A stretch of 64,000 nucleotides of DNA from Pyropia yezoensis (taxonomy: Eukaryota; Rhodophyta; Bangiophyceae; Bangiales; Bangiaceae). The stretch is from assembly GCA_009829735.1 (NCBI GenBank), contig CM020620.1, positions 29,275,777 through 29,339,776 of the forward strand, given 5' to 3'. A program made the position numbers and the translations under genes. This document shows, piece by piece, positions 28,694 through 63,778 of this stretch. The notes under the pieces were generated by a model. The model made no database searches. It worked only from the letters and a program-made list of their open reading frames with translations, and was not told where the DNA came from. Position 1 is the stretch's first letter. Every line of letters starts with the position of its first letter.

Positions 28694-30164
28694 TGTTCAG
28701 GCTTTCAAGCGTTCCTCTGGCGATGTTGGGTCGGGCAGCCTTAGGCAGGCCCGCCTGCTGGTCGCGCCGTCGAAGGGCGCACGGCTGCCGGTCGCGGGCT
28801 CTTCATCGCCTGCTCGGCGAGGTCGGGTCGCCACACCACGGCGGCCACCGGCGTCTTCGGCTGCGGCATCTCGTCGGGGCCCGCAACTGAACAAGAACGT
28901 TTCCGTCTCCGTACGCGGGATCGAGTTCACCCCTGCGTTCGGGTCCGTCGTTCAAACGCCGGGGTCATCTGTCTCGGCGGCGGAGCGTTTCGCCCGGATT
29001 TACAAGGTGACCATGATCATCGGTCGGGTGCGAAACGTTCGTGTTTTGGTGCGATCTGTGCGCGACACGGAGATCGCCGACGTCAAGAGGTACATCAAAT
29101 CTTTTACCACGACGGGCTACGACTGGGCGCACGGTATGATCAAGGTGACCGAGGACTTCACACAAGACAATGACCGTGAGTTTGAACCGCTAGTGGTGGG
29201 CGAGGATGGCGTTTTGGAGGACAAGAGCGACCGCATTACGTCACAGTCGACGGGCACCACCGACAGACGGCGTTGGTGACTGTGTTGGAGCGGGATCTTC
29301 CGAATGCTTCGGAAACCTGTCGGTACGCCCTCGTACAGCGTCGCGACGGCAAGCCAATGACAGAGACGGAAGTGCTGTCGTTGGGCTTGGACTCGAACGA
29401 GTCGACGGTGCAGAGCAAGCTTATGGACACTGCCGACGTCGTCGTCTTCCTGACGCACTGGGTGCGAGGCAAGCACAACGAGAGGCGTCTCAAGCATTTG
29501 GCTGGCCTAAAGTTGGGCGTCACCAAGACAGGAGATCTCTTGAATGAGCTGCTCAAGGAAAAGATTGGCGGCTTGTGTAAGGACGACGGGACGATGGCGT
29601 ACGGCGTCGCATCCATGCGCCGAATGCTCAACATTGGCTTGTTGGGGTTGGAGGACAGCGCTTCTACAAGGTACATGGTCGAGAAGCTGAAGGCGTCCAA
29701 GGTCAAGGATGGCTCGGACGGCTCGTTCGCTCTTGACACGCTTATCTCGCCCATCATGCTCTACGCCGAGTCAATTTACACGGACAAGGAAGCCGTGCGT
29801 CTTCGACTTCTCAAGATGGCGTGGGAGTATACGTGCCATCGCACGCCCGACAAGAAGGTTCGTCGGCTTGTCGCAGGCAGTGACGGCTCGTTTCTACGCA
29901 AGCGCTGTGCTCTTCATCAAGTACGTCCAAGATGCAACCCTGAAAGTTGTCAAGCAAAAAGGCGGCACGCCCAGCGGAGTGCGGTCCCTGTGGTCGGGCA
30001 AGGGTAAGCAGCCAGCCGGATCTCCCGCTCGGCCAAGCGCTGTCCCTGATGTCCCTGCAGAGCAGACTGCACCCGCTTCCGACGAGGCGTCTGCCCAGGC
30101 CGCGACGATTCACGCGTCCACAGGGTCACTGGACTTGCTGCAGCAGACCCGTCCGGGTGCGACC
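28694..30164 (+). CDS. ParB/sulfiredoxin-fold protein, cassette 1 (5' end in gap, two frame changes)
   Basis: The frame is open from the gap edge. After an Arg/Ser/Pro-rich region it reaches VKRYIKSFTTTGYDWAHGMI, then after a frame change near 29160-29225 VDGHHRQTALVTVLERDL, the Gly-His-x-Arg signature of ParB N-terminal domains (the paralogue in cassette 2 has VDGAHRLTAL). A second frame change near 29860 leads to RFYASAVLFIKYVQDATLKV, which aligns with FFTVLLVFLNHLRVAVRV of cassette 2. ParB-fold proteins bind DNA, and some hydrolyse CTP or cut DNA; the function here is unknown. There is no stop before the oxygenase region that follows, so the two may be one reading unit. The frame changes may be errors, decay or introns. 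Confidence 0.7.
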
Positions 30165-32680
30165 ATGACGTTGGGCGACGAGCTGACAGACTTGTTTGTG
30201 AAGCACTACACCGAGGCGGGTAACGAGGCACCCAAGGCGGGGCAATCCGTGAGCAAGCTGGTGCTGGCGATGCAGTATCCGTTTGTGCTCAAGTACTTGC
30301 CGTCCTGGAAGAAGATGGTGGACGAGTTTATCGCGCCTCCTCCGCCGCCGCCGCCGCCGCCGGCCAAGAAGAAGCCGTCGAAGAAGAAGCAGTCCAAGAA
30401 AGGCGGCGGGAAGTCCAAGTCCAAGAAAGGCAAGAAGAGCACGACTGGAGGAGATGCAGGTGCTTCCACCGGTGACGCGCCATGTCACCCTGACGCGGGC
30501 GCTCCACCATCGGGTGGTGTCTCGCCAGGAACCGGCCTCGAAGCACAGCCTGGAGCCGCCGGCGCTGCCGGTGCTCATGGCGGTGGCGACGCGCAGACAG
30601 TGAAAGACGCGTCGGGCGGCGGCGAAGGCGATGGCGTCAAGGACAAGGAAGCTGGTGAAGCCGGGACCGCGGACAGCGTCGGTGATGGCGGCAAAGGCGA
30701 CGACGACGGGACGGGGAAGGACCCGCGTAAGCGAAAGCGGCACAGTGGTGTGGGCGGGGAAAAGCGGCGCAGCAAGCGATCCCGTCATCCTCCTCCGGAG
30801 CTTGGTGAGCTGGTAGCTGTTCCGACTGACCAGCAGCTTCGTGCGCAGCTGGTTCGCGGCATGTCGGTCCGCGCCAAGTCCCCGTTTGCTCGGGCGGTAC
30901 GTCGAGTGTTCGTCAACGGTCGTCGTCAAGGCCGTCATGACATCCGCAACCAGGTAGCTGAGAAGCCGTACGACGACACTGTTCCTCCGATCGTCGAGAG
31001 TCTTCACGAGCGAGCTGCGGCGAACCGGCGCAAGCTACTTGAGCCCCACTTCGGGGCTCCTGGAGTGCCCCGCCCCCGGATCCCCCACTGCACGTCCGAC
31101 TTCCTCGCTTTGCGGCTCTGCAGCCGACGGAGCACCAGGGCCGCGACGTTCTACCTGGGGACGCTTGGAAAGACATCGACAAGTGCGTGTCTTTGTTCAT
31201 GGCGCAGCAGGGGGTCAAGCTGCTGACGGGCATGCCTGGTGTCCCGACGTCGCTGCCGGACGACGATTCGGGTGTTCACTCTCTTCTTGGAGGCGCTGCG
31301 TGCCTGGCATTTGCCAAGACCCTCGTGGAGTGCGGCTGGGTGATCATTGAGAATGCCGTGCAGGACGGCATGCCACGTCTTCTCCAAGGTGGACCTTCGA
31401 GCGTGGACGCCGTGCTGGACCATTATGTGCACTTGTTCCCAGGTGAAGCCGAGGTTGCAAAGGCAGCGGCTAGCCCGGGGACGAGAACAACACCTTCAGT
31501 ATGGGCTCCCATTCACAACGTCGACACGGATTTGGACAAGGTGCATCTTGCGGACGGGCAAGGGCGATTTTCGGTGCCAGTCAAGATGGTGGCTTCCTCC
31601 GACGACGCTACGCAGTCATTCGTCTTCATCCGCAAACTTCACGCTGACGCCTGCATGGCCGCCATCGCCAACCAGATCTTAGAAGCCGTTCCTGCCGCCG
31701 AAGGTCGCTCAAGTGCCCCCCCGGTTGTAAGGACGCCCAAGACTGGGGCTCGCCTGCTGCTGACAACTGAGAACGCTGTGCGGCAGCGTCCTCACATCGA
31801 CTCTGGGCTGCTTGAGGACAAGCTGCAGCAGGAGGAGATCAAGTCAGTCGAAGACGCTGGCGCCTCATTCACAGGGGCGGACAAGATCGAGCCAACCGAG
31901 GACAATGAAGTTCAGTTCGTTTCCGCCAAGAAGTACAAGATGCCGCTGTCCAAGAGCTTCTTTATCATGGCGTCCGGGAGGGACTCCTTCGTGTTGGCAG
32001 TGTGGCCAGGAAGCGTGCTTGCTCTACGGCGGATCGAGGACGGACACGTTGTGGACCGCACGCTTGTGAGCGAAGTCATTGAGGTCCCCAAGAACTCAAT
32101 ACTTCTCTGCCGGAGCGACTTGGTGCACGCTGGGTGTGGAGCCGATGAAGACACCACGCGGCTGAACAAGGCGCCTGTTGAGCTTGCCTACGCGCGCTCC
32201 ATCCGTTTGCACATGTACCTGCAGCACCCGCATCAAGCCCTCAAGGACGCCATCTTTCCCGTCAGCAGAGTGACGTTTGCGAGCAACGCCTCCCCGTCGT
32301 TGAGCGCCGTTCCCGCGGTCGATGGTGCAGACGCGCCCACTTCACGTGACGGAAAAGCTGGTGCTGCTGCGGACAAGCCCAGTTCTTTGCCGGATGAAAA
32401 CGAGGACGTCGACATGTCCGACGTCGTCGGGGGCGAGGTGGAAAGCTCCGAAGAATCGTCATCCAGCTACGAGGTCTCTGAGGATGAGACCGATGTCAAG
32501 GCGGCTGACGACAAGGGTCAAGATGCCAAGGAGTCCGATGCCATGGAAGAAGATGGCGGAGATGACAATGATGACGTCGGCTCTGCCAAGGATACAAGTG
32601 TCAACGGAGAAGACGAAGAAGATGACGGGGGGAGCAACGTAGGTGGGGACGGTGAAGATTCTGAAGGCAAGGATGCCTAG
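30165..32680 (+). CDS. 2-oxoglutarate/Fe(II) oxygenase-like protein, cassette 1 (one frame change)
   Basis: An ATG at 30165 is a possible start, but the frame is open upstream into the ParB-like gene. The N-terminal part has a helical segment (LTDLFVKHYTEAGN), a Pro-run, then Lys-rich and Gly/Ala-rich linkers with basic nuclear-type clusters (RKRKRHSG). A frame change near 31070-31100 is needed to reach LPRFAALQPTEHQGRDVLPG, which matches cassette 2. The catalytic core shows GWVII near its start, the metal motif His-Ile-Asp (RQRPHIDSG, about 31795), and a distal His in RSDLVHAGC (about 32130) with a nearby Arg (SIRLHMY). The tail is about 95 very acidic residues. The substrate is unknown: DNA base, RNA or protein. 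Confidence 0.75.
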
Positions 32681-33115
32681 GGTGATGGCGCTCAGTGAGA
32701 GCATGTACGCGCGAGTGTTTGTTGTGGGCATGATTTCGTGAGAGAATAGCAAGCGATAATGATTAGTTTTGCCGTCACCTGCATTCACATGTACTTTCCC
32801 ACGTGAAGTGATGACAGCTTGGAACAGAATTCAGGAGGTCTGATTCATTACAAAACGTTAATCATCTCTCTTGACCCAGACGACGATCATCGATGCAAGT
32901 CGAGGTCATGCCAGTCCACGACCAAGTCGGACAGCATGTGCAATGTCATCTTAAGCAGTGAGCTCTCGGCATCTCGACATGGTAACTGGGCAACAAATCA
33001 GTCTGAGCAGAGCATCAGAACTTGTACCATCCGCGCACTTCACTGAACTTTGATATATCAACAGCTTTGGTGCTCTAAGATTGGATCAGTCTTGAATGGT
33101 CAATGTCATGCTGAT
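32681..33115. other. Spacer downstream of oxygenase gene, cassette 1
   Basis: AT content is higher than in the neighbours. No gene or repeat is recognised before the palindrome array begins. Confidence 0.5.
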
Positions 33116-34206
33116 GAGTAGTGCTACTCGTGGAAGTCCATGATGAGTAGCAGTACTCGTCGCGTCGTTCTACCCGATTGCTTTTGGTATTTCGAGATTT
33201 TGTGATTTCGAAACCCGTCAACGGACGAGTAGCACTACTCGTCGAGAGGGAATGGCAAGAAAAGGAGCAGTGCTGCTTGTCAACAGAGAAGGTCTCATAT
33301 CGAGAAGAGCGTCTCGGTGACGTCATTCGACGAGTAGTACTACTCGCCAAGTGGGACGGTCGAGTAGCACTCTTCGTCGACAGGGAATGGCAAGAAAAGG
33401 AGCAGTGCTGCTCGTCAACAGAGAAGGTCTCATATCGAGAAGAGCGTCTCGGTGACGTCATTCGACGAGTAGCACTACTCGCCAAGTGGGACGGTCGAGA
33501 AAATGAGTAGTACTACTCGTCAACTCAGAATTCTTCATATCGAGAACTGCTTCTTGCTGATTTCACCCGACGAGTAGCACTACTCGTTCACAGAGAATGA
33601 CAAGAAGGACAGTTGTGCTACTCGTCCAGAGAGAATGTCTCGGATCGAGAAGAGATGCTGTGTGATGTCACCCGACGAGTAGTGCTACTCGGCCAGAAGG
33701 GATCATGCAAGCACGCGTCGTGCTTCTGGTCGATAGCGAGTGTTGGATTGGGGGAATATACAAGTCGGTCACCTCTGTTGACGAGTAGTGCCACTCGTTA
33801 ACATGGAAGCACTCTAACAGTTGTGCTACTCTCAGATAGCGAAGTTCATAACGGGAGTGCAGTGCAATTTTGTTATGTCACTCCACAAGTGGTGCTGCTG
33901 ATCATGAGTCAGCGTTTCCAGGACGTCGAGGTCCCTTTTTGGACGACGAGTGCCATTCGTGAGCAGTGCCGTTTGGCCTTGTTCTTCCTCTTCTTTCTTG
34001 CAAGTCGCCATCATCCTCCCCACATATCCTGGAGCGGCGATGAGTAGTGCTACTCGCCTGGTACCGTTCGCGGCATTGTACGGCAAATTTTCTGCAAAAG
34101 GTTCTCTCGCGACGAGTTGTGCTACTCGTTTGTCGGTTCCGAGAAACTGTTCTACTTTGTGGTTCACTTCCTTGAGAGTTTTTCTATGTCCGACGAGCAG
34201 GGCTAC
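33116..34206. repeat. Array of about 12 palindromes with core GAGTAGYRCTACTC, upstream of methyltransferase-SET gene 1
   Basis: Cores start at 33116, 33145, 33227, 33332, 33362, 33467, 33505, 33572, 33677, 33783, 34042 and 34114, and further decayed ones occur near 33617, 33820, 33945 and 34190. The best (33332) reads GAGTAGTACTACTC, a perfect palindrome, and many extend to CGACGAGTAG...CTACTCGTCG. Several sit on a tandem unit of about 135 bp (33248 and 33383 are near-identical). Spacing is irregular, 17-250 bp. The array fills the promoter side of the next gene, so the palindromes may be binding or modification sites. Confidence 0.85.
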
Positions 34207-34322
34207 CTGTCATATGGCATGATTTGTTCCAGTCTTGCTGTCGGTTTTCCGCCATAATTAAGTATTTAGTCGGCACTTACTTGTTTTTGAAGGCCAATTA
34301 CTTTCTGATTTATGATTTGATT

Positions 34323-34330
34323 TATATAAT
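34323..34330 (+). promoter_or_regulatory. TATA box of methyltransferase-SET gene 1
   Basis: TATATAAT lies 53 bases before the ATG at 34383 within an unusually AT-rich stretch (34255-34345). It supports initiation at that ATG rather than at upstream non-ATG codons. Confidence 0.5.
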
Positions 34331-34382
34331 CTTTTACACAGCTCTTTGGTGTCCTGTCTGTGGTCCACATTTGTGCGTAAAT

Positions 34383-37300
34383 ATGGTCGATCAGGTTGTC
34401 GATGTTGGCTTGGCGGTCTGTTACGCCAGTCGGCCACCTTTTGGCCATCGTTCCTCGCCTGATTTTTTCCTTTCCGTCCCTCCGTCGTCCCCGTTTGCCC
34501 TTGACCGTGTCACTGTCGTGTCGCAATATTTGTCGTCTTCCGACATCACTATCGTCATGGGAGGGCCGTCAACTGCTGTTGTTGTTGATGTTGTCACCTC
34601 ATTGGCTGAGCGTGGTTTTCGCGCATTTCTGGACATGCGGTCGTCTGATGTCGGGGTCTTCCCTACGTCTTGTGTACTCCTGTGTCTCAGTGAGTTACGC
34701 GACGTGTACTTCCACTGCAATGCCATCGCGGATGCTGTTGATCGCGAAGGTTCCGATTTTTCGGTTCTGCGTCTTGAAGACGCGTCATGGGAAGCTGTTC
34801 GGTTTTGGATTGTATCGCATGTCCGTCGTGTCCCTGGGACTGAGGTCGGGACTTCTTTGTCGCGGGAGCAAGAGTTTGGACCTGGGCTATCGCGGAGCGT
34901 CATCGTCAAGATTTCTCGTCGGACGGAGTGGCTTGTCGATAATCGTATCGAACGCGTGTATACCTCCCTTTGGCAGTTGAAGCGGTTTATCGCAGTGCCG
35001 AGTGCCCCTAGGGGGCTTGATGGCATTTTTTTGCTGCGTTCAGGGTGTGCTGGCTTTGCGGATGGACCCGGCAGCGTGTCGGGCGTCGGTGTCGATGTTG
35101 ACGACGTGCTGCATGATGACGACGTTTCAAGGGTCGTGAATGTGTTGGCGGTGTCAGCGGATTCACGACTCGCTTCTCTGGACGGACGGGCGTGGCAGGT
35201 TGTATTGGCGTTGTCAGGCCAGCAGGCAGCGCTTGAAGACCTCATTGTCTTTGCGCGCTCGCACTTCCCCGCTTTGTCGTCTTCAGCCGAGCAGGAGGCT
35301 TCCTTGGTGCGTGGTTTCCCTGCTGGCCCGGCAGCGGTTGGAGAGCTTCGTCGGTTTGCAGCTGATGACCTGGGGAACATGATCGCTTCCTCAGCTGGAC
35401 AGGGTTCTCCTGCGCCCACACACCCGGTCAAGCTCCACCATGAGCTCCCGGCGGACGTTCTCCTCCGTGGGGTCCTTGAGGCCTGGCCTGATGATGACGG
35501 CTATCGCGCTCACTGCGCGAGGCACGGCGTGCCGTCAATTGCGGCGTTGACGCCGTTTCAAGTCGTTGTTTGGCTGTCCGCTGTGTGTGGTCTTGGCCGG
35601 CAGCCCGCGTCCGGCAGCAAGGCCGATCTCTGGCGGCACGCTGTGTTGCTGAGGGGTGTCGTATACGACGTGATATCTGGCTTCGACGTGGTCGCTCGCA
35701 GTGTTGGCTTTTCTTCGATCGAGTCCATGGTGGCACCCTATCTCTTGTGGCATGCCAAGGAGTGCGAGTTCTTGTCGCTTGCGCGCCCTGAGGACGACGA
35801 TCTGTTCGCGCCTGTGAGCCAAGGCGGGAATCTGTGGCATGCTGCTGGACCTGTCAGGCGCTCCTCTGCGGCTGTAGCTGCAGACGTGCTGTCTCGGACG
35901 CCGGCGGCCAACAAGCAATTGCGTGTTGTTGCACACCTGCTACACCTGCACCTCTACTGGTGTACGCGCGTCGACCGTCTTGATGGGGAGCCCGCGCTGG
36001 TGGATCTTCTCACTGTTGCCCGCAAGCGGCCCTCGCGGGCTTCGACGACGACGACTGATGAGGATGGTGACGCGTCGTCCGATGTTGTCGTACGGGTGCC
36101 CAGCGACCCTGGCAGATCGTCGCAGTCCCGCAAAGGGAAGGAGCCGGTCCGCGTTGACCGCCGGAGGAAGCCTCTTTCCGGTCGTATGTCTGTCGCGGAT
36201 TATCGACCTCCGCGTTGGTCTGGCGACTTGACTGAGGTTCCGCACGTTCTGAAGTCCGTCCTGGCCGGTCTTTCGGCTTTTAAGCGGGTACCTGTGACGT
36301 CTGGGGGAGCCTTGAAGGTCGGGATCGGACCCAGCGGTAGCCTGCGGTCGAGGCTGTGCGCCCGCGGCGCGATGCGGGCTTCTGGTGTTGACGCAGAGCT
36401 TGCCGCGGGTTCCCGGCGTGGTATGTCTCCTGCCTCGCCTGACCAGGCGGCTGTGCCTGATATGGGAACCGCTTGGTCAACGGTTACTCGCGCGATGCAA
36501 CATGTCGCGCAGGTGCACGTTTGTCCATTTCAAGACCTCATGACCGTCCACGACGAGCTTTTGCAGCAGCAAGAGCAGGCGTTGATCGAGTCCCGCGGCG
36601 ATGGTCGGTTCGGGCGAGCGGTGGCGCAGGGTCAGGCGGCGACTTCTGTTCCGTCGCAGTCCATCCCGCGCTTTCTCACCGGCCAAGTGCAGCTGATCTT
36701 GACCGATCCGCCGTATAACATCCGTCGGGACGCCAACCTGCCGCAGTCTGCGCACGACATTTTGACTGAAAGTCAGATGCTGAGGTGCGCTAACCTGTTT
36801 ATGTTGCTGCTTCGCCCTGGTGGTCACCTTTTGGTGTTTTGCTCCTCGGCCCAGCATCCTGAATGGGTACGAGTCCTTCGAGGCCTGCGGGATCGTGCTA
36901 AGCGTGGCGCAAGGGACGGGACGAGCGCCTTCGCGGTCGACGGCGCCGCACTCGTGACGATCAAGGACCCCCACGCTATTGCCACTGCGCGGCGGAGCTC
37001 AACGAACCTGACCAACAAGACCGAAATGGTCGTGCATGCCACTCGGTGTGGCGCATCCGCGCAGGAGGCGTACGAGATGGTGAACTACCGCACGTTTAAC
37101 CGTGTACCGTCGCACTTCCTGGCCCACGACAACGTCATTGACAATGTCCGTCCGCCCGGTGCGTCGGAAGTGGTGTACCGCGTCGAGGCGGGCTCCCGCC
37201 AATGGATACGCCCGGAGCAGAAGGCTATCTCGTTGGGACAGGAGTTGATTGAGCGGTTCTCCCAGTGCGGGGACCTTGTTGTGGACTGTTTCGCTGGCAC

Positions 37301-38936: not shown

Positions 38937-39998
38937 CCTAACATACGAATCTACAAAATCGACGAACCACCCCCCCTCAGTTCGTCAATTTCGCATGGTT
39001 CGTCAATCGACGAACCGCCCCATATGGCCCGGAATCGCCACACCCCCCCCAGTTCGTCAATTTGGCCGGTTCGTCCTCTCAGATCCGGAATCGACGAACC
39101 GCCCGTGACGCCCCCCAGGCGCGCATTCGACGAACCCCCCCCAGTTCGTCGATTTGGCCGGTTCTTCCTTTCCGCCCCCACTGCCCCCCAGGCGCGCATT
39201 CGACGAACCCCCCCAGTTCGCCAAAATCGCCGGTTCTTCCTTTTCGCCCCCACGCCCCCCCAGGCGCGCATTCGACGAACCCCCCTCAGTTCGTCAATTT
39301 CGCCGGTTCTTCCTTTTGCCACCCGTCGTGCCTGTCCCCCCGCCTCCATTTATGCCACACCGCTTGTACCCCCGCCCCCACTTCTTCTCCCCTGCTCCTC
39401 CTGTCCGCGTCCCTACCTTGCCCGCTCACCCATGCCTTCCCCCATCCTCTGCGCGCTTCCCCCCTCCCCTCCCAGTACTTCCCCTCCTCCCTTCACCCCT
39501 CCTCTTCATCCTGTGCACCCCTACCCGCCTCCTCGCCAAACTTCAGTGCCCAACCCCCCCCCTCCTCCCTGGCCCCCCCCCCCTTCCCACCCTTCCCCAG
39601 CCCCCCTTCCCCCTCCCGCCCCACCCCCTCCTCCCCTCCCATGCACTAAGGTAGAAATTACAGCCCCCTTGTGGGCGCCTGTATCCACGCCCTTTTGCCT
39701 CCCCGATAGCCTGTCCTACTCGCCCCGCCCCCCCCCTCCTCCGTCCATCCTCATCCAGCGTATCCACCTAGCCCTCAGCCTGTAACGACCGTCCCGCCCC
39801 ACTGTCCCCTCCTCCAAAACTCCATCACGGGCCTCTAGCCGTGGCCCTCCCCACTCGCACGCCCCCTCGCCCACAGACGCTTGCCACTTGACTCGCACGC
39901 CCCCCCGACCACGGACGCTTGGCCATAGCCCTCTCTCTCTCCGCTGCGCCCACCACCACCTGAGAGGTACCCAATCACACGCCCCCCATTGCCAGGCG
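38937..39998 (+). repeat. Left arm of a 1.1-1.2-kb inverted repeat, C-rich, with 73-bp tandem units
   Basis: Near-identical in reverse to 51082-52289. The outer part carries three tandem units of about 73-77 bp (about 39110-39335), each with GGCGCGCATTCGACGAAC, a C-run and AGTTCGTC. The inner part is C/T-rich low complexity and ends at an assembly gap. The right arm is 146 bp longer, exactly two extra 73-bp units. Confidence 0.88.
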
Positions 39999-40290: not shown

Positions 40291-40817
40291 GGACGCCTCC
40301 CGCGTGGGGCCCCAATCGATCCTCCAAGAAAAAGGGCCCTCTAGCGCGCGCGCGAGCTCCACAAGACCAATGGGATTAACTGGCTTCCGGAGCACCGCTC
40401 GCACTGCTCAGAGAATCTGCGCGCCAGACCCCTCCCGAGCGTCCTCGCAGTCGAATGCTCTGGCGAGCAGTACACTGCGGACCGCAGGCAGTGTCAGCTG
40501 CCGTTAACGGTGACATACCGGCTCATTTTCGCGCCACGAAACGGAAGCTGCGATGTGCCCGCCTACAGGCCAGTCGCGCACCGCCGTTAACCGTTACATA
40601 GCGGCCCAGTTTCGCGCCGAAAAACGGAACCTGCCACCCACCCCACCACAGCCCAGTCACTCGCACGTCTCCCTCTCAGCCCTTGCCCAATCTCCTGGTG
40701 TGCGTATCGCCCTCTGTATCTTTCTCCCCCTGTGAAGCACCTCCCGCAACAGTGGCCTTGACGACCCTTTCATCCGGCATCGGTACCTCCGCCCTCGAGC
40801 TTCTCTCCCATCCCACC
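40291..40817. other. Upstream region of helicase copy 2
   Basis: Homologous to about 24590-25028. It contains two similar stretches with CGCGCCACGAAACGGAA and CGCGCCGAAAAACGGAA (about 40533 and 40612), both preceded by a TTAACCG/GTTAACGG-type element. It probably contains the promoter. Confidence 0.5.
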
Positions 40818-48470: not shown

Positions 48471-48474
48471 GTGG

Positions 48475-48990: not shown

Positions 48991-49177
48991 GTAGTTGGGC
49001 GTGGAGGTGGCTGGCGTCCGCGATAGGGCGCAGCGCCCGAGTGGTTGTGCGCTCTTTTGCGCGAGGCAGGCTGGCTGCAGGGTGGGCGGCGAACGCTGGG
49101 GAGCCGGTTTGGTGGGAGATCGCGGCTGCTCTTGCCGAATTCTTGCCGCGCGCGCGCGGCAGACTCTCTCTGCGCCG

Positions 49178-51061: not shown

Positions 51062-51081
51062 TTTGTGGTGGATCAGACGTG

Positions 51082-52738: not shown

Positions 52739-55479
52739 CTAGGCGAACGTGTGAGGCGTCGTCGCCGTCTGACCGCCAGTCGCCATACGCATTCGGTACT
52801 TGGTGCACATTTGCACATCGTAGGCCGACCCATAGTCAACAAGCACTTCGTCCCCAGCCTTGATCTCTCGCGTCGCTTGAATCAGGAATGCACAAGGTGA
52901 GACAAGCTCTTCAGGCCGTGTCACCGTGTCTGCAACTTGGCACAGGCAGGCGTTGGCACTCCGTTCTTGCGGCAGCGGGGGGAGACACGACGACGTTGCA
53001 ACGCTCGTCGTCGGCTCAGCGCCCGACACCGCCGCGCTCATACGCACAGCGCTGTCGACGCCTGCAGACACAACGGCACGACCACCGTGCGTGCCAATAC
53101 TCCCGTCCGCAGAGACGATGGCCGCCTCCACTGGCGACAGGCCCCTGTGGTCGTTAACATACCCAGCGACACAGGTTGGCGCCGGCTTCAACCACACACC
53201 CGACTGGCGGTGGGTACGCCAATCACCAGCGCCTCCGCGGACGGGCGCTGCTGTCGTGGCCCACTTGGTCGCGTCCACGCGGACCTTCAGCGCACGCGAA
53301 TGGAAATCGGCTTGTGTTGTACCCAGCACACCCAAGACGTCCCCGGCGTATCGGCAGCTCAAACTGTCCCGCATCCTGGACAGGTCGCGGTAGATAATGG
53401 CGCCATAAAACGGGGCCACCATTGCCCCAGCGGAAATATCTCTCAGGGCAAAAATGCCGAGACCACCTGCGCCCCCGTTTACAGAGGAGGGGGCGACGGC
53501 AACGCCGAGGCTGGCAGCTTCGGCACACCTCATCGCGTCAAGGTCCTCCACCATGAGACGGCACCGCAGCTCCAGCGGCCAGCGGTCGACGGCAACACCT
53601 CGGAGAGCCAAAATCTGAGGCATTGACACGCGCTCGCCGTCCGACACCATGCCGGCGTGCGGCACTGCCCACCTGGAGGCGAGCCAGGAAATGAGAACGT
53701 CGGGCAGAGCACAGTGTGCAGGCTGGCCGGCCGGGACCTGCATGTCGAGTTGGTACGCCACCGGCCGGGGGAGACTGGGAAACGGCGCCGTGTAGGACGA
53801 CCCATACGCGTACGCCGACTGAGACAGGTATTGAATGCCTGACGCAATGTCCTCCCGCAAGGAAGCCTCCGCCAGAACCCGACAAGCCCGAACGATCCGG
53901 CCGTCGACATGCTCCGCCAGACCACCTTGCAGCACGGCGCTGACAAATGCGCGGAGGAGCCGTCCTCGAGAGGCAGCAATGCACGCCGCGTCAGAGTCAC
54001 CCACAAGGGCCCGTCGATATTGGCCCGCGCGCATGGTCAGGGCCGCGACTGCAACGGATAGAGTACCACAAAAGGGGTCCGCCACCAAGTCCAGCGGGTG
54101 GGAGAAGCGAGCGATCAACTCTTGCAGCAGCGCCAACCCCTTTTGCTCGGGTCTCAGGAAGCCGCCGGACCGGGCCGAAGGATTTCGCAGCACCACTTCT
54201 GCTCGGGGAAGACTGCGAACATTGTTGACGATGTTGGTCGAGGCGGCGTAGTCGGACGCAACGTAGCCAAATCCCCGGTAAGACACCCGCGCATGCGCTT
54301 CACTGGGGGAGAGCCCACGGCGGGTGGCGTGCACAACAATCTCTGCCTTGCTCGTCAGCACCACAGAGCTGAACGTCTGACCAAAAGAAAAGGAATGAGG
54401 ATCCTTGATCACGAGCAGGGGCACGCCGTCCACAATGAAAGCGGGCGACTGAGACTTGGGCGCGCCGGCAGCGGAACCCCCCCCATCCCTTGACCGCTTC
54501 GAGCCCCGCCGGGCGCCGTGTTCGCCTGCATCTTGCCAATCATCTTGGCATGCCCGCAGCGCATCCACCCACAAAGACCATTGCTGGAAGGAGCAAAAGA
54601 TGAGGACATGGCCGCCTGGGCGAACAAGGTCGCGAAAGAGCCGCACAGAGAAAGTGTAGTCCTCTGCTCCCATGACATCGTACTCAGAGTGCTTGGCGTT
54701 CTGCTCCCGGCGTGTGTTGTACGGAGGGTCGGTCAGTACAAGCTGCACCTGTCCCACGATGCCCTTGTGCTCAGCTTCAGATGCACTGCCGCCCCGATGC
54801 GCCTCATGCGCTTTCAGGAAGTCTTTGTAGTCCCCGCTGTGCGTCCACACCACCTTGCTGAGAGCAGCGCTGACGACACCTTGCGCCTCCGCCACTGACA
54901 GGCCTTCCTGAGCAGAACGCACCAAAGAAGACGACGCAGCAGCCTTCTTAGACGATGGGGTAGGAGAGGTAGACCGAGCCAGAGGAGAACCGACAGGGGC
55001 AGCCCCGCCCGCTGCGGCCGTGCGACGACCGACACTCCCGCCGCTGCCGCCAGCTGCAGACAGCATAACACCGCCCAGAGCAGGAAGGAAGCCCCGACGA
55101 CGGGCGGGGATCAGAGGGTGCACCGATGCCAAAGGCACAACAGGACCTGCAGCAGCAAGCACGCTCCCTGCGTACGCAGTGTCAATGCCACTCCCCGGTT
55201 GCCGCCTATATCCAACCCCTTCCGCTGACGAACACGACGCATACAGATCCGATATGACCGCCGATAATGAGATTCTTCGAAGCGGCGAGTCGGGCACAAC
55301 CTGACCCGCCGGGGAGGTACCGCCGCTACTCCACGTGCGGTCGCTCCTGCTGCCGCCGCCACTCGACGAACTGCTGCCGCTGCCGCTGCTGCGCGTCCCG
55401 CTGCTGTCACCGAGAACGCTTTGCCAGTCCTCTACTGTTTCCCCTTGGCTTGAACGAGTGCCGCCCCCCCCAGAGCTCC

Positions 55480-55518
<39 letters not shown>

Positions 55519-57130
55519 TGCTGCGGTCGTCACTTTTGCTGCTGTCGCTTCCATCGCTGACCTCGCTGCTGCTGCTGCTGTCCCAAAACGGGAGCTTCCC
55601 CCCGTCCTCAGCAGCGTCCTCGGGCGGAGCGAGGGCATTCAGGCCAGCAGAAATAGCCGCCAGAATCGGGGGAACTCCATCTGCACAGCACAAAGAGCGC
55701 GGCAAGCGGTAGTGCGCCAAAGACAGACACGCAGCTTGCGGATGTGCTGGGAGCGCACTTCCGCTACTGCTTCCAGCAACTCGACCGCGCCGCCGCGTGT
55801 TGGCGTGCAGAGACTTCAACCGGTACCGCGGCTCTGTCGAAGGGTGCAAGGCAAAGCCCAAGATGTCGACACGAGATGTGACAGTCTCCAAGCGGGATAG
55901 AAAAAGCTTGGACGCCAGACGAAGCTGCTCATCCGCAACTGGCGAACGCCCCAGCGCTTCTGGATCCACACTGCCGCGAACAGCACTCGGAACAAGGCCG
56001 TGAAAAAGATCTCGACTCTGAGCAAGGGGCGCCAGCCGCCCAATACCCCCCTCCACGAGCGCCTCGTACTTGAGACGCGAAGGAGACCACAGAATGTACG
56101 GACCCAGCATCTCCTCCGCAGACGAGAAGCGCGCGCGACGCGCAAGCGCGTCCCAAGCCCGCACTAGACTCCGAACAGCACGTGCAACAACCTCCGAGAT
56201 GGCGTGCGCACGTACGAGCGCCGAAGAAGTACCCCCCGACGTGTCCTGGACTCCTTGATGGCGCGGTGGCTGCCTACTTTGTCGACCATGCAGCTCCCGC
56301 AGCTGCTCTTGGCGCGCCGTCGTGTGCTGCATCGGCGTCCCGCCGGTCAGCTCAATCACGCGAGATAGCCAAAGCACCTGCTCAAAGGGCGTGAGGGAAG
56401 AAGCACGATGCCGCCTTGCCCCGACGCGCCGACGCGCCGAACGATGCACGGGAGGTAGAGCGGGTGCCAGCACGTCGCCAAGCCATGATTGCCCGACATC
56501 AGCGTCGAACCGCATGCCAGACATGGACTCCATGGCACAGATCACAGCGGTCGCACCCGGAGAGCGCCCGGTCAGCGGTAAGCAGCCACGGCTACGGCTG
56601 ACGGCATCTTCGAGATCCGCAAGTTGTTGCCACCGACCGGTCCAAGCGAGCAGCAGCTGCCAAACGCGATAGTCGGCCGCCGGCGGAGGCCACGAGAGGT
56701 ACGCATAGCCTGCATCTACCACATCGGTTGATAAAACGCCAGCAACGCGCTTTGCAACCTCTTCCACGTCTCGCGAACGGTAGTGCATGAGCGCGCAGAC
56801 GGCTGCCGATAAATCGGCCACGAAGGGGAGCTCCAGCAACGCGACGTCATCATCGGGTTCGCCGCCAGAGGCAGCCGCATCGCGAGCCCAAGCGCACACC
56901 GCATCCCAAGAGCAACGCACAGCCCCAGCACGCTGACCGACCGAACCCACTGCACGACCCGTCTGCAGCAAAGTCGACAGGTACGCGTCACGTACGTCAC
57001 CAACAGCGAACAACAAGGAAACCTGCAGCTCGACCCCAGACTCCACATCGTTCGGAGACAAGCTGAACCGCCTCGCGCACGCTGCCACTGCCTGCACGGC
57101 CCGAGACGTGCGATCCGACGGAGAAGCCAT
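52739..57130 (-). CDS. DNA amino-methyltransferase (DPPY type) fused to SET domain, cassette 2
   Basis: 1463 residues from ATG 57130 (Met-Ala-Ser-Pro-Ser-Asp-Arg). Same plan as the gene at 34383 and similar along its length, though strongly diverged. A Ser-rich linker (about residues 560-690) contains long serine runs read from CTG/CAG-type repeats near 55480-55515. Methylase motifs: TDPPYNTRR (about 800), LVRPGGHVLIFCS, RPEQKGLALLQELIARF and LVADPFCGTL (about 1015). SET region (about 1230-1450): GGLGIFALRDISAG, PFYGAIIY, CVAGYVNDH and EVLVDYGSAYD, again with Asn-Asp instead of Asn-His. The frame is intact. It lies downstream of the oxygenase gene on the same strand with palindromes between, as in cassette 1. 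Confidence 0.88.
55440..55600. repeat. CTG trinucleotide microsatellite inside methyltransferase-SET gene 2
   Basis: CTG units dominate about 55480-55515 and recur near 55560-55580. On the coding strand they read as serine-type CAG/AGC codons, giving the Ser-run linker between the N-terminal region and the methylase. Confidence 0.75.
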
Positions 57131-57554
57131 GATGGATGTACAAAGCGACAGGAACAGACAACACCACAAGAAGCACCGGGAATCAAAGATCCACTGCAGC
57201 CGCCGCGGGCACATACAACGCGGCAGAAAAAGCCAGAGCGCGCACAAACAACACTGTAAACATCCGACCGCGGTGAGCGATACACCACGACCGATTTCAC
57301 GTCATAAAAACAAGCCAGTTCAACGCCCAAAGTACTTGCAACTATGAACCTACCATTACGGAACTCAATATGCGTTCTAAAATGGAATGCAACTTGTGAG
57401 TCGACAAAAAAGTCCAAAAACGAAGTGGTGGAGTGAACAGATAAGACAACCAGGCTTCCTCGGCTGAGAAACCAACACAATAAGGCATCCACTCCGGGGA
57501 TGACAGGGACTCTTTGCATCGCAGGTCAGGCAGATGGCGCAAATCACTGAGAAG
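57131..57554. other. Upstream region of methyltransferase-SET gene 2
   Basis: AT-richer than the gene. No clear TATA box. The first decayed palindrome follows at 57555. Confidence 0.45.
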
Positions 57555-57583
57555 TAGGTGATTATAGTACTATAAACACTCAC
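57555..57583. repeat. Decayed copy of the 32-bp palindrome
   Basis: The core TTATAGTACTATAA (57562-57575) and the right arm are intact; the left arm is degraded (AGTAGGTGA). Confidence 0.8.
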
Positions 57584-58171
57584 ATTCAAGGAATTGACAA
57601 GCGTGATAAATACAAAACACAAATTCGAAACACTTTACAAGGTCCATATGGAGTCTGACTGTCTGTTCCCCGCCAATCCTAGCCGACCAATCGCTTTTGG
57701 TACTGCAAGCACTCACTGGGTCAGCCAAGGGGACATCCGGACATTTGACATGATGGCGATGGTGCGGTCAGAGGTAAACGATTGCTGTGAGGGAACGAAG
57801 GTGCGTGTGTTGGTTGTCCTGTAGACCTTCATCCGCTCGCAGGCAGACTAAACGTAGGCTGATGAAACCGCGCGATGTGTGCACACAACGCCAAGTACAC
57901 TCACGCAGCCAACCGCCAAACCAAACAAGAATCATGTCAAGCAAATCGAAAGCAAAGATCACAAATACCAGAAAACCAAGTACACTCATAGCGTTGTGAG
58001 CTACAAGATTTTGCACAAGAGGCGTATGGGTAACATAACCACCTTAAGAAACACGCGTGTAGGCGTCGTCGTGGGTTTGATCCCCAGTGGATTCTCTTTC
58101 GCCCGTCCCGTGCCTTGATCCGCGTGGCTCACATGGATCTGAGCACCTTGGTCGTCTACAGGCCTGACCCA
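57584..58171. other. Spacer between single palindrome and palindrome array
   Basis: No gene is recognised. It contains CACGTG-free sequence with short direct repeats of CAAGTACACTCA (about 57890 and 57978). Confidence 0.4.
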
Positions 58172-58531
58172 AGTGAGTGTTTATAGTACTATAAACACTC
58201 ACTCAAGATTGCCACGTGTTGCCTTGATCCACGTGGCTCACGTGGATCTCAGCACCTTGGTCGTTTACAGGCCTGACCCAAGTGAGTGTTTATAGTACTA
58301 TAAACACTCACTCAAGATTGCCACGTGTTGCCTTGATCCACGTGGCTCACGTGGATCTCAGCACCTTGGTCGTCTACAGGCCTGACCCAGGTGAGTGTTT
58401 ATAGTACTATAAACACTCACTCAAGACTGCCACGTGTTGCCTTGATCCACGTGGCTCACGTGGATCTGAGCACCTCGGTCGTCTACAGGCCTTACCCAAG
58501 TGAGTGTTTATAGTACTATAAACACTGACTT
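58172..58531. repeat. Tandem array of 109-110-bp units, each with a 30-32-bp palindrome, upstream of methyltransferase-SET gene 2
   Basis: Palindromes start at 58172, 58282, 58391 and 58499; the last has a mutated right arm. Each has the half-site AGTGAGTGTTTATAGT plus its reverse complement. Between them every unit carries ATCCACGTG, a 3-base spacer and CACGTGGAT, and a further CACGTG nearby. A partial unit precedes the first palindrome from about 58107. The array lies between the oxygenase and methyltransferase-SET genes, the same place as the array of cassette 1. Confidence 0.92.
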
Positions 58532-58722: not shown

Positions 58723-61479
58723 TCACTCTTCGATCACCATTCCTCCAGAATTCACTCTAGTTGACCCGGCAGCCTCCGTGGCTTCGCCACCACCCCGCGC
58801 CGGCGGAAGAAAGGTAAAGACGTCGGGCGCCGGATAGATGGCGTCCTGAATGGTGTCACCAACTTTCCGCACGTACATGTGTGCACGGATGTTGCGCCGG
58901 TAGTAACTACGAACCTTCTTGACGCCGCAGAGACCATGCCGGTAGTGATCGTCGACATCAGCAGCACCAGCGTGCACCAGGTCACCACGGACAATCAGGA
59001 CCGAGTAGGGAGGAATTTGCAGCAGACGAGCCGGAGGCGGAACCGACTTGCCCGCCATGCCATCACGAAGTCGACAAGCATGGTTATGGCTGTCCGGCCA
59101 CACCCAAAGTGGAAACCCGTCTTCCGCCGACGCCATGACAAAGTACGACGGTGCCGCATGAGATCCTGCATCCCGGCTGGACGAAGCAGGTGATTGGTTT
59201 TCAAACGACGCCGCAAGATGCTGCGCCGCCAAGTGCTCAGGAACTTGTGTCAGCGGAGGAGTACCTGCCCCAACTTCAACAGGACGAAGCTCTTCCGCCA
59301 CATCAGGTCCGTACGCGCCGTCAGGAATAGGAGTGTCGGTGTGCGGCCGCTGACGTTCAGCGCCCTTGGTCGTCACAAGAAGACGGGACCCGGTGCGAGG
59401 GATGCACATAGGACCAATGCGCCGGTTGTTGCGCTGGATCCCGCCATGAAGAGTCCTCCAAACAATCGCAGCAAGGAAGAGGTCGACGTTCTGCTTACTC
59501 ATGTATACCTCGCGACTGGCGCGTTGCAGCTCGCTGGCGAGGTACTGCGCCGTTGTCATCAGCCGCCCTTCGCCACGGCTTGCAATCGCGGGATCGTCGA
59601 CGGCCACCCTGTTGTGGATGAAGCAAAACTCCGTGGCGTCGAGGACGTCGGCCTCATGACGTTCCCGCAAGGTGGCCTCGTCTGGTAAAGCCTGGTGGAA
59701 GTGACGCAGGTATGAACGAAGGTGAAACCGAGTCCGCGATGGTGTCCCCGTCCGCAGCGCGTTCGTGTAGATCGTGTAGCCCCGCTCGTGAAGTTCCTCG
59801 TGCCCTACCGTGTACAGCAGCCGCGCGTGGACCTCCGCCGCCGTCACGTGGCGCTCAATCTCGGACGGGGCGTCGTTAATATTCCACATGTAGGGCTGCT
59901 CCGAAGCGATGCCGTGAGTGACCTCCCAGCGCCCATAAAGCGTGACGTGCTGGTCAATGGCAATGAAGTCCTCGGTGTCGACAACGCCACGAGCCGGGTG
60001 GTCATCTGGTAGAAGCTCGGCAAAGCGAGGCAGGTCTGACGTCTTCCGGGTCGCCATTCTCTGCCGGTCGGCTCGCGACATCTGCGCGGGCGTGTCTGGC
60101 ATGTCGGGCGGCGGTTGCGGGAACGCATCGGCACCCGTGGAACCACCGTCCCCTTCCACTCCACGTGAGGATGGTGCATTCTCCGCAGAGCCCGCTGCTT
60201 TGTCACCGCCACCGCCGTCGGATGACCCTACCGCCCGCGACCGTTTGCTCGCCCCATCTGGACAATCCGAGCCGCCATCAGGTGCCGGCCGCTGTGTGCC
60301 ACCACCTTCCGTCGTGGGCGTCGTTTCCGCCCGACCCGTGTCGACGCGGGCGACCGCAGCAGCTGCTGGCATCGCCGACGGATGCCCCCCCCCAGGCGTT
60401 GTAGGCGCGGTGCCCGCCCGACACGGCTCTACAGGGGCGACGGCAGCAGCCGCTGTTGCGGGAGCCGGCGGCTTTCCTCCACCGGGCGTTGAGGGCGCCG
60501 TGGCCGCCCGACCTGGCTCGATAGAGCCGACGGCGGCGGCGGGTGTAGGCGTTGGCGGTTGTTCATGACCAGGCGTCATGCCCGCCGCCTCGCTCGTGGC
60601 GGGCTCGGGGGGCCGCTCTGCAGATGGCTGAGGACCTCCAGGAGCACCGCCAGTCGCCGAGTTCGTACTGGTTGGCGGGCGCAAAGGAGAAATCTCGTCT
60701 CGAGCGTCACCGCTGACTCCACCTGGGCCTTCCTCTCCGCCACCACCCACCGAGGGTCCGGCGGGCACGATTACGGCGTCATGTTCTTTCTGGACCGCCG
60801 CGGGATCGACGTTGTCGGAAGGCCCTCTTGGACCGGCTTGCTCGGCTGCCGGGACAGCAGAAGAAGGCGGGCCGCCATCACTCCCAGCTTGGCCCGACGG
60901 TGAAGACACCTTTCCAGGGCCGCCCGCCCCATCGTCGGCACCCTTTTTGCCACCGCTACCACCGTCGGCGTCGACAGCGTCACCTCCGCTTCGGGTTGCG
61001 GCACCACCAGTTCCGGCGTCAACTTGATTGGGTGCCGCAGCGTCGCCTTCAGTGTTGCCGCCTGTGCCACTCACATTGACGCCGCCACCGCCGGCGAGGG
61101 CACGACGTGCGGGCAACGGCGTCGGTGGGGTGGGATCTTGCGGCATCGTCGGCCGCACCCATTCCGCGATCAAGGCACACCAGTCACCCCAGTGCTTCTG
61201 GAAAAATCCATGGGCGCGGGCCGCCTCGACGCCAACAGACTCGGTGGCGCCGCGCTTCACGCCGAGGGCCTTGGCTTTCTTGCCCTTGCGCTGGCCTTTG
61301 CCCTTGCCTGCAGGCCGACCCGATGACTGGCGCTTGCCCTTGCTCTTACGCCCGCCCGGGTCCGCCTCCTCCTCGTCTTCATCCAGCTCCTCTTGTTCGT
61401 CGTCGTCCGAGGCCTCTACGTCGGATGCGGACTCGACCTGAGTGCCCCCACCTTCTACGTCGTTCACGTCGTACTCCAT
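58723..61479 (-). CDS. 2-oxoglutarate/Fe(II) oxygenase-like protein, cassette 2
   Basis: About 918 residues from ATG 61479 (Met-Glu-Tyr-Asp-Val). Begins with an acidic run, then a Lys/Gly-rich basic segment (about residues 45-75), a short helical region (HGFFQKHWGDWCALIAEWV), a 350-residue Gly/Pro/Ala-rich disordered linker, and the catalytic part. Core motifs: RGYTIYTNAL, then RQRPHTDTP (His-x-Asp, about 712), SYFVMASAEDGFPLWVWPDSH, and RGDLVHAGA (distal His, about 834) with NIRAHMY (Arg). These match a double-stranded beta-helix oxygenase. The frame is intact. The ATG overlaps the end of the ParB-like frame by about 16 bases. It resembles the gene of cassette 1 mainly in the core. Substrate unknown. 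Confidence 0.82.
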   Translation of the reverse strand: MEYDVNDVEGGGTQVESASDVEASDDDEQEELDEDEEEADPGGRKSKGKRQSSGRPAGKGKGQRKGKKAKALGVKRGATESVGVEAARAHGFFQKHWGDWCALIAEWVRPTMPQDPTPPTPLPARRALAGGGGVNVSGTGGNTEGDAAAPNQVDAGTGGAATRSGGDAVDADGGSGGKKGADDGAGGPGKVSSPSGQAGSDGGPPSSAVPAAEQAGPRGPSDNVDPAAVQKEHDAVIVPAGPSVGGGGEEGPGGVSGDARDEISPLRPPTSTNSATGGAPGGPQPSAERPPEPATSEAAGMTPGHEQPPTPTPAAAVGSIEPGRAATAPSTPGGGKPPAPATAAAAVAPVEPCRAGTAPTTPGGGHPSAMPAAAAVARVDTGRAETTPTTEGGGTQRPAPDGGSDCPDGASKRSRAVGSSDGGGGDKAAGSAENAPSSRGVEGDGGSTGADAFPQPPPDMPDTPAQMSRADRQRMATRKTSDLPRFAELLPDDHPARGVVDTEDFIAIDQHVTLYGRWEVTHGIASEQPYMWNINDAPSEIERHVTAAEVHARLLYTVGHEELHERGYTIYTNALRTGTPSRTRFHLRSYLRHFHQALPDEATLRERHEADVLDATEFCFIHNRVAVDDPAIASRGEGRLMTTAQYLASELQRASREVYMSKQNVDLFLAAIVWRTLHGGIQRNNRRIGPMCIPRTGSRLLVTTKGAERQRPHTDTPIPDGAYGPDVAEELRPVEVGAGTPPLTQVPEHLAAQHLAASFENQSPASSSRDAGSHAAPSYFVMASAEDGFPLWVWPDSHNHACRLRDGMAGKSVPPPARLLQIPPYSVLIVRGDLVHAGAADVDDHYRHGLCGVKKVRSYYRRNIRAHMYVRKVGDTIQDAIYPAPDVFTFLPPARGGGEATEAAGSTRVNSGGMVIEE

Positions 61480-63778
61480 AAGAGGGCAGTCAGGTGCGCT
61501 GTCATTGTCTCGCCGCCAAGGAAGGGGTGCACAAGGCCCCACATGTTGGCCACATCAAAGTCCGGGCCAACCTCGTAGGAGCCATGGACAAGAAAGTCAC
61601 GAGCACCTTCATCCTCCTGCGACGACTCAGAGTCGCTGGCTATGCTGCCCGTCTCCTTGTTCATAGCGCTCATGAGCCGCAGGATCTTGGCTTGATACCC
61701 CGCCGGCTGCTTCTGCTGCAACTTGTCAATCCTCTTCTGCCGGGGGGCGTTGCGCGCTGTGATGCGCCGCTCACGACGACGTGCGTCCCGCTCGGCCGGG
61801 GACTCGATGTTGTCAATGGCGCGCTTGCGCTCAATCACTTTTCAACGTACTGCTTGCGCGCCGCCAGAGTGCTCGCCACCTGCTGCGCCGACGCGCCTTC
61901 CAGCTGACGCTTGGCCACCCGCACTGCGACACGCAGGTGGTTGAGGAAGACCAAGAGGACAGTAAAGAACATACTGTCGCACCCTTGCTTGAGCCGGTTC
62001 GGCGGCACACCAGCAGGCTTGGCCACCCCCGTCCACAACCACGCAATCTCGAGCATCTTGTCGCGCACAATGTCTGCATCCTCACGGGGCGTTCCAGGAC
62101 AAAAGATGAACGCCGGGGAGACCAGCCCCTCGCAGGCCAGGGAGCTTTCCCCCGCTTGAGGCGCAGGCCGGTCCTTTTTCTTCTTGATCGCCCGCACCAT
62201 CATTCGGTCGGCTTCCAGGATGGTCAGGTAGCGCATCAGGCGCTTCTGGGTGAGCGGACTCACCGCCAGCATGATACCGATCGTCACGAACCGCTTGAGG
62301 GACTGCAGCTGCACAGGGACACCCTTGTTGGAGCTCGGCACGTTGCCGCTCTTGAGCAGCTGCTCTGCCGTTTTTCCCACGTTCACATTGCCCGGCGCCA
62401 GCTGCAAGTTCTGCGTCCTCGCCATGGCCCCCATGATGTGGGTGGACCACTGCAGCTGATGGCCGGTGGACATAGGCAGAGGCGTGAGGGCCCCCGCATT
62501 GGCGGCTCCTGCCTCGAGGAGAATCTCCACGTCTGTCATGGGCTTGCCGTCCTTAAGCTCCTTGACTGCCATTTCCACAGCGGAAGCCGGCGCGCTGCCA
62601 AACTGGTCTTTGAGCTTACGCTCAAGGATGATGCACAGCGCCGTCAGCCGGTGGGCCCCGTCGACAAGGATGTACCGCCCAGGCTTCTTTGGGTTGGGCG
62701 TCACTTGAATGACGCCATTCGTAGGGATGTAGCCAAAGCTGGTAAACTTTCGAATGAAGTTGTTGACCCACTTGTCGGAGATCTCGCGCGCCGTGTTCTC
62801 GAGGAAGTCGACCTTGTCCAGCTGGATGACCTCGGAGCGAACCTTGTACAGCTGTGACTTGGGCTTCAGCGTCATCTTGGGGACGATCTTGTCATCGTTC
62901 GGGAGCTCTCGAAACGCGTCGCTGCCAGCGTCCACGTTGCCTTCATCAATGTCGTTAACAAACGTGTCGTCGACGGTGTCGACGTTATCGCCGCCCGAGC
63001 GCTGCCTCAAAACATCGCCTTCCTCTTCCGCGTCGTCATTGTCCGACGCTAAGCGACCCGCCTCGGCCGACGGTTCCGATTCCGCAAGACGTACCGCCCG
63101 GCGCTGGGCATGTTGGTCCTCCGTTGGGCCACCGCCGGGTCGGGCAGCCCGAGTGTGAGTACGACGCGTCACCTCGTCGAGGTCACCGGATGATGCCGAA
63201 GAACTCTCGTTGGCACGGTCCGCTCGACCGTGAGCAGAACCGGCGACACTGCGGCGCGGCTCCCGGTCAGCAGAAGATGGGAGCCTCCGCCCGTGCCGGA
63301 GGGGCCCCGCACAGGTCCAACAGCACCAGCGCTTGACGCCTCACCGCCACGATCGCCTCCGCGGCCGCCTCCCACGCGGCCGCCGCCACGGCCACCACCA
63401 CCGCCACGACCGCCACGTCCAGGGCGCTGGCTACCGTCCACAGCCCCAGCAGCTTGGTCCTCACCCACCGCTTGAAACCCCGCCGCCGCCACGGTCTCCG
63501 CCGCGGCCTTTAGAACCCGCAGAGGTCAGGCCGACACCCAGCATTACTGCCTCGGCAGCGCCACCGCCACCCCACGGCAGCCTCACCAACAGCTGAAGGG
63601 GCGTTGCCGCCATGGCCGCGATCCTTGTCACCAGGAGACGAGCACGGGCGGCAACAATATCCCCGGAGCTTCACCCGCGCCCACTTCCGCTGCGACCGCC
63701 GCCCGCGACCTGACCACGCCCACGACCGCCGCGACCGCGCGTTCCACGACCGGATCCGGTCGAACGCTTGCGCGCCAT
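61464..63778 (-). CDS. ParB/sulfiredoxin-fold protein, cassette 2 (frame changes at N-terminus and near C-terminus)
   Basis: ATG 63778 matches that of the copy at 49178. The RGG-like N-terminus (63778-63180) is broken by several one-base losses in G- and C-runs. From 63172 a 445-codon frame runs to a TGA at 61835: acidic segment, then WVNNFIRKFTSFGYIPTNG, GRYILVDGAHRLTAL (ParB signature, about 62650), and a helical C-terminal region with FFTVLLVFLNHLRV. Immediately at the stop the -1 frame continues as coherent Lys/Arg/Glu-rich helix (IERKRAIDNIESPAERDARR) to 61464. Either the protein is longer with a one-base error, or a frameshift yields the extension. ParB folds act in DNA partition or as nucleases; the eukaryotic role is unknown. 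Confidence 0.75.

Follow-up and report, generated by a model that had tools for sequence, protein, structure and literature searches.

The Ectocarpus element Sola1-1_Ec32 encodes a single 1104-amino-acid protein in which a ParB-like part is joined to a DNA methylase, and the accessible part of the same paper describes similar ParB-like methylase proteins from transposons of green and red algae, which may bind and mark their own element, as well as giant EnSpm elements with accessory genes in red algae (PMC12477816). VANC proteins of the Arabidopsis VANDAL elements act on targets that are often tandem repeats and vary between related elements (PMC5735166). According to the accessible portions of further papers, TET/JBP dioxygenases are carried by fungal DNA transposons (PMC12730594), SET genes by HarbingerS and MuDR elements of Phytophthora (cited in PMC12730594) and cytosine methylases by retrotransposons (PMC5890265). 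The stretch analysed here (hereafter the window) comprises 64,000 bp of the genome of the red alga Pyropia yezoensis (C3:29275777-29339776 of the 107.5-Mb assembly, ~45 kb from the end of C3) and contains two cassettes, A and B, each encoding a ParB-like part (P), an oxygenase-like part (O) and a methyltransferase-SET protein (MS). We propose, with a confidence evenly poised between right and wrong, that these cassettes serve large, mobile-like elements, present in many copies and several families, as a module with which they recognise and mark themselves and so counter silencing.

An earlier note on this DNA had described the two cassettes as diverged copies of a three-gene unit, and the same gene types do occur in the same order and orientation at 28.7-38.5 kb (+) and 63.8-52.7 kb (-). 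All three parts are present, but the division into three separate genes was rejected: intact copies have P and O in a single open frame, and the cassette therefore consists of two genes, PO and MS. A near-identical copy of PO-A (C1:43553620-43557357; 99.5% over 2772 bases) is one open frame, a single open frame spans P into O in L045 (C3:29.375 Mb), and the open frame of L042 and L043 covers P and extends halfway through O. Elsewhere, the reported open-frame lengths for P and O are identical in many copies, and 34 of 48 P-O pairs lie in one frame, where a third would be expected by chance.

The P part is predicted to adopt a ParB/Noc/KorB-like fold, consisting of an N-terminal ParB domain followed by a helix-turn-helix domain. 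Pfam ParB_N (PF02195), proposed in the earlier note as a check, has no match in the whole genome, and P of the window gives a weak match to GmrSD_N (0.0089). Five of the eight rows of alignment A5 match a PHROG ParB-like partition protein (best 6.5e-5). An AlphaFold model of P from the T-family relative L042, built from eight sequences, reached a predicted local distance difference test score (pLDDT) of 73 and a predicted template-modelling score of 0.72. Its best structural alignments, across the N-domain and the helix-turn-helix domain, are with Noc, ParB, PadC, pNOB8 ParB and KorB (the last at ranks 12-13), in a list from which the absence of a family does not exclude that family. The tighter matches are 7bm8_A (97 residues, 2.4 A) and 5k5d_B (221 residues, 4.6 A), while several rows with high Z have a large root-mean-square deviation (11-13 A), which probably reflects a domain swing.

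In O, the only conserved feature is HxD..H..R, found in four of five rows, with HxE in P0037. HxD...H...R is the motif of 2-oxoglutarate (2OG)-Fe(II) dioxygenases, and by this motif O is a probable 2OG-Fe(II) oxygenase. MS-A and MS-B are ~33% identical proteins of the same domain architecture, for which the proposed N6_N4_Mtase and SET identities were both recovered by profile (Table 1). The SET scores of both window copies lie slightly below the Pfam cut-off, and that of the interior copy L080 lies above it (27.7 vs 22.4 bits). The methylase part matches DpnA (3e-13), MboIIA, CcrM and RsrI, and its DPPY precedes an FxGxG-type motif, which is the arrangement of beta-class N6A methylases; the SET part matches SETD8, KMT2C and EZH2. 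By profile, MS is thus a beta-class adenine methylase fused to a SET domain, presumably active in both parts. P0011 from Pyropia yezoensis matches MS-A at 100% identity over 30% of the query. Fifteen of 18 environmental proteins (P0018-P0035; 790-1167 amino acids, 25-32% to MS-A) carry both the methylase and the SET Pfam domains; therefore, the MS gene may be more widespread than Pyropia.

Three queries served to survey copies in the Pyropia genome: MS-A, with 33 of its 435 candidates scored, gave at least 67 matches; P of cassette B, with all 79 candidates scored, at least 91; and O of cassette A, with all 83 scored, at least 78. After pieces of one gene had been merged by hand, 33 MS, 57 P and 57 O places remained, and P, O and MS matches group into at least 64 clusters genome-wide, including at least 23 complete P-O-MS triplets. 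O lies within 12 kb of 50 of the 57 P places and is then located 3' on the same strand in 49 of the 50, the sole exception being a gap-cut copy in the window. Likewise, 28 of the 33 MS places have O within 12 kb, which is 5' on the same strand in 27 of them, the exception being the rearranged C1:8.11 Mb. When O was placed at random, a mean of 0.49 MS places had O within this distance (maximum 3 in 200 trials). Genes scattered independently of each other, which would have spoken against a unit, were not seen in this genome-wide check, and the suggestion that the unit is kept together and multiplied was borne out by the conserved order in the 64 clusters and by the recurrence of a 5.6-kb upstream stretch described below. 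A single old segmental duplication, the alternative raised at the outset, is ruled out by the number of copies and their dispersion over all three chromosomes. Both window cassettes are subtelomeric, and at five of the six chromosome ends (left and right on C1 and C2, right on C3) a cassette of family A, B or T lies at most 0.25 Mb away. These subtelomeric copies are 96-99.9% alike (compared stretches of at least 1.9 kb), which points to exchange between subtelomeres.

Long palindromes are arrayed between PO and MS in families A, B and I, and each of these families has a palindrome sequence of its own. The A gap contains six palindromes (0.4 in shuffles, largest 2) and the B gap nine, of which five are B-type (0.36 in shuffles, largest 2), and the interior gaps (12 copies) contain three or four each (0.24-0.5 in shuffles). 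All 12 interior copies share three sites, which in some of them carry one or two mismatches, and a fourth palindrome, ACATTTTGTACAAAATGT, occurs twice at C1:11.5 Mb with one mismatch each time. The palindromes of B and I are centred on GTAC. A common GTAC centre for all palindromes was discarded on recounting the A family, in which GTGC or GCAC forms the centre of 35 of 46 sites, GTAC of only 10 and another sequence of one.

The 46 A-type sites of the genome form six clusters, five of them beside A cassettes. Among the 27 B-type sites, 18 are in the gap, seven are 1.7-1.9 kb 5' of P and two are unplaced. The 219 I-type sites include 50 perfect sites to which placement was confined: 16 in the gap, 27 at 4.0-4.9 kb and four at 13.7-13.9 kb 3' of a further gene, X, and three unplaced. 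Reversed-pattern controls returned no B, two A and no I sites genome-wide. Most placeable palindromes fall inside the elements.

The cassette is part of a larger repeated unit. The 5.6 kb upstream of the interior cassette at C2:12.17 Mb recurs at at least 26 places including itself, on all three chromosomes (26 of 348 candidates scored), and 24 of the 25 other places match it at 90-97%. Since 20 of the 26 places reach the first or second base of this stretch, the element begins further upstream. Six of the 26 have no PO within 20 kb, and neighbouring same-strand copies occur at C1:5.95-6.00 Mb and C3:20.29-20.32 Mb. Among the 33 MS places, 19 copies of family I were selected to look for gene X, which follows MS on its 3' side at 5.4-7.3 kb in 13 and at 14.9-16.5 kb in three, and was not found there in the remaining three. 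The copy at C2:21342104-21369819 measures 27.7 kb between the start of its 5' stretch and the final palindromes. Cassette ends at window positions 38737 and 52384, where matches stop, were rejected, as other copies enter N runs there. Within its recurrent 5' region, the interior element also has an open reading frame (ORF) with a RING-H2 finger above the Pfam cut-off (L079:2927-3703(+)), and G-rich tandem arrays with a unit of ~320-354 bp, ~83-89% alike, precede PO (L079:5649-7725) and gene X (L080:3646-4867).

From these parts we infer a mechanism in which PO, through its ParB/KorB-like domain, would recognise palindromes or iterated sites that are specific to its family and lie in regions controlling the genes of its own element, and O, fused to this domain and probably a 2OG-Fe(II) oxygenase, would bring oxidation to the chromatin at these sites. 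MS would methylate element DNA, with an N6-adenine-type mark, and a histone. Such sequence-specific self-marking would keep the element expressed and set it apart from other families. We prefer self-marking as the simplest account because it uses all parts, and family-specific palindromes together with the predicted ParB-type fold could provide it with a possible recognition step. A bolder version is a eukaryotic ParB-parS-like system, in which the ParB-oxygenase protein would load at the family-specific palindromes of its own giant element, perhaps spread, and with the methylase-SET protein write DNA and histone marks; protein and palindrome would diverge together, such that each family marks only itself. 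We put this version forward tentatively, as possible though probably wrong.

Several observations weigh against self-marking by these elements. Many cassette copies contain stops or frameshifts, element ends and target-site duplications were not found in copies that run into N gaps or past the retrieved DNA, and no transposase was found. The name oxygenase is not proven for O, because only HxD..H..R is conserved, matches in Pfam profile and PDB searches are at chance level, and an AlphaFold model (pLDDT 36.5) is unusable and gives the oxygenase fold, a double-stranded beta-helix, no support. In P, DG[AGHS]HR stands where ParB has its GERR motif, with D, G, H and R invariant in all eight rows; GERRxRA is the cytidine triphosphate (CTP)-binding nucleotide motif of ParB, and the DGxHR residues are those of the serine kinases and sulfiredoxins related to the ParB fold. 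The gap of family T contains 14 imperfect-dyad iterons, mostly 44-46 bp apart, and no long palindrome; neither palindromes nor iterons were found in the gap of the C1:40.06 Mb family, and no palindromes were found in three family-J stretches (outside which the true J gap may lie) or in the 1.5 kb preceding P in copies of T, C7 and C1:40.06. The shuffle maximum reaches the observed palindrome count in two of the 12 interior gaps (L064 and L066), and 169 of the 219 I-type sites are unplaced. Furthermore, palindromes of family I are hardly better conserved (0.975-0.990) than their flanks (0.966-0.974); therefore, the interior copies count as one event, and the independent evidence is the number of families, not the number of copies.

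Autoregulation alone would make PO a KorB-like repressor and the palindromes operators before PO and MS, with the enzymes acting elsewhere or on the host. A and B sites do lie upstream of both genes, as operators would, and the fold matches of P include KorB, a plasmid repressor, but the many family-I sites 3' of gene X (27 of the 50 listed) do not fit such a scheme, which also leaves the fusion of a DNA-binding to an oxygenase-like part and that of a methylase to SET unexplained; we consider it unlikely. The predicted ParB-type fold, the iterated T sites and the neighbouring same-strand copies on C1 and C3 would also suit a partition or copy-control protein, with the palindromes serving as parS or iterons in a circular, plasmid-like stage outside the chromosomes. 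Yet no ParA-like or replication gene is present among 23 ORFs scanned (ParA was not sought genome-wide) and there is no evidence for an episome, which makes this explanation decidedly improbable.

That the A, B and T copies are host-maintained chromatin genes with telomere or mating functions, spread by subtelomeric recombination, would agree with their location near five chromosome ends, their high similarity and the RecQ-like ORF with an OrsD-type relative between the cassettes. Against this, family I has the same two genes interspersed on all three chromosomes with a highly identical 5' region, which at six of 26 places occurs without PO, and we regard a host function of this kind as quite unlikely. 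Algal viruses can carry genes for SET proteins and DNA methylases, and PBCV-1 vSET (1n3j) is among the profile matches of MS, as might be expected of remnants of an integrated large DNA virus. A pattern-based scan of 2.9 million IMG/VR contigs returned only five distant methylase matches (21-36% identity), none reaching SET, and no capsid or DNA-polymerase profile was matched in the 23 ORFs scanned, among which there is no complete element; a viral origin thus appears highly improbable, and self-marking remains the explanation that we favour.

Table 1. Coordinates of cassette genes, sites and neighbouring features (window positions unless a chromosome is given).
Feature	Position	Strand	Remarks
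PO-A	28694..32680	+	ParB-like 28694-30007, oxygenase-like 31187-32680; frameshifted, 5' end inside N gap 28194-28693
A-type palindromes ACGAGTAGTACTACTCGT (<=2 mismatches), n=9	33114..34129		PO-A/MS-A gap, partly on 105/135-bp tandem repeat 33221-33700
MS-A	34224..38513	+	N6_N4_Mtase E 5e-10, SET E 3e-4
Repeat with 73-bp satellite, 3' of MS-A	38937..39998		98% to inverted repeat 3' of MS-B, 51082-52289
Large ORF between cassettes	40683..47807	+	2374 amino acids, RecQ-like DEAD helicase (RECQ5 ~1e-5); partial copy 24692-28174
Lone B-type palindrome	47898..47919		1.88 kb 5' of ParB-like match of second PO-B copy
Second PO-B copy, 5' part	48290..50561	+	Abuts N gap; 99.6% to C1:43536743-43539014
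MS-B	52739..57247	-	N6_N4_Mtase E 2e-10, SET E 4e-4
B-type palindromes AGTGAGTGTTTATAGTACTATAAACACTCACT	57558..58525		PO-B/MS-B gap; four on 109-bp tandem repeat and one outlier
PO-B	58723..63172	-	Oxygenase-like 58723-61542, ParB-like 61835-63172; two frames here, one in other copies
N runs	28194-28693, 39999-40290, 50562-51061		500, 292 and 500 bases
Subtelomeric A/B/T cassettes	C1:43.53-43.58 Mb, C1:0.23-1.74 Mb, C2:0-27 kb, C2:34.19 Mb, C3:29.30-29.384 Mb

The large ORF between the cassettes contains the motif GHTSTTATQRY, which we take to be tyrosine-recombinase-like, and its relative P0039 carries the OrsD zinc finger PF12013, a resemblance to fungal telomere-linked helicases. This ORF is only a candidate member of the element, and the candidate identity of gene X as the helicase was rejected, as two X ORF pieces and a 1.2-kb stretch 3' of X have no similarity to it. 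The repeats 3' of both MS genes (~1.1-1.2 kb) start with CCTAACATACGAATC ~0.4-0.45 kb from the genes, and their 98% identity contrasts with that of the MS proteins. Scaffolding may in part be responsible for the order of blocks at the two cassettes and for the inversion of B. Furthermore, the window encodes two Gypsy-type pol ORFs (4948-9084(-) and 13512-17603(-)), the second adjoined by a gag-like ORF without Pfam match (17656-19878(-)). A GC-rich stretch at 22768-24260 is 98.9% identical to DNA that lies 3' of MS in the T-family cassette on the left end of C2 (L023); therefore, a further cassette may once have been there.

As far as the accessible text of the cited papers goes, ParB-like methylases in algal transposons and the idea of self-marking are already known, and the earlier note, which knew of no eukaryotic element of this content, is not borne out for that pair of functions; the oxygenase and SET fusions are unreported in the literature searched. 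That search covered titles and the beginnings of abstracts, but not Petroll 2025 (Current Biology), the likeliest place, and yielded no report of ParB, oxygenase, methylase and SET together, or of an oxygenase fusion, a SET fusion or palindromic arrays; red algae are not mentioned in the accessible text of PMC12695648 by term search. New here are the palindrome arrays in the PO-MS gap of families A, B and I, each of different sequence. If the proposal is true, a selfish element of a plant-like lineage would carry a single genetic module that identifies the element's DNA by sequence and marks both this DNA and its chromatin. This makes it testable whether eukaryotic adenine methylation can be sequence-targeted and used by an element against silencing, and families with different palindromes offer candidate protein-site pairs for specificity tests and locus-specific chromatin tools.

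With bacterial ParB, Noc and KorB, PO shares the predicted N-domain and helix-turn-helix fold and, where A, B and I are concerned, nearby palindromic sites, but it differs in its oxygenase-like fusion, DGxHR in place of GERR, its eukaryotic genome and the lack of ParA in the ORFs scanned. Like EnSpm giant elements, the Pyropia units may be giant red-algal elements with accessory genes. An EnSpm transposase was not seen near the cassettes: an exon-by-exon search gave 48 genome matches to Transposase_21, and among the 47 O places covered, out of 57, a single one has such a match within 60 kb, at a distance of 58 kb. Elements with TET/JBP, SET or cytosine-methylase genes are likewise mobile elements with epigenetic enzymes, but have a named transposase or reverse transcriptase, and neither a ParB-type recogniser nor cognate palindromes were seen in their accessible descriptions; unlike the enzymes of the fungal DNA transposons, O of Pyropia is not established as TET/JBP. 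Sola1-1_Ec32 has in common with PO-MS the idea of binding and marking its own DNA (PMC12477816), yet it encodes one protein, whereas Pyropia has two adjacent genes for ParB/oxygenase-like and methylase/SET fusions, with palindromic arrays between the genes in three families, and a transposase assignable to a named superfamily was not found. VANC belongs to another protein type (DUF1985/DUF287), for which the accessible text mentions none of the enzymatic domains of PO-MS, and its binding and a loss of methylation have been demonstrated, whereas target binding by PO is a prediction (PMC5735166). As an element-encoded protein whose targets often lie in non-coding tandem repeats and differ between related families, VANC is nonetheless the best functional parallel to PO-MS.

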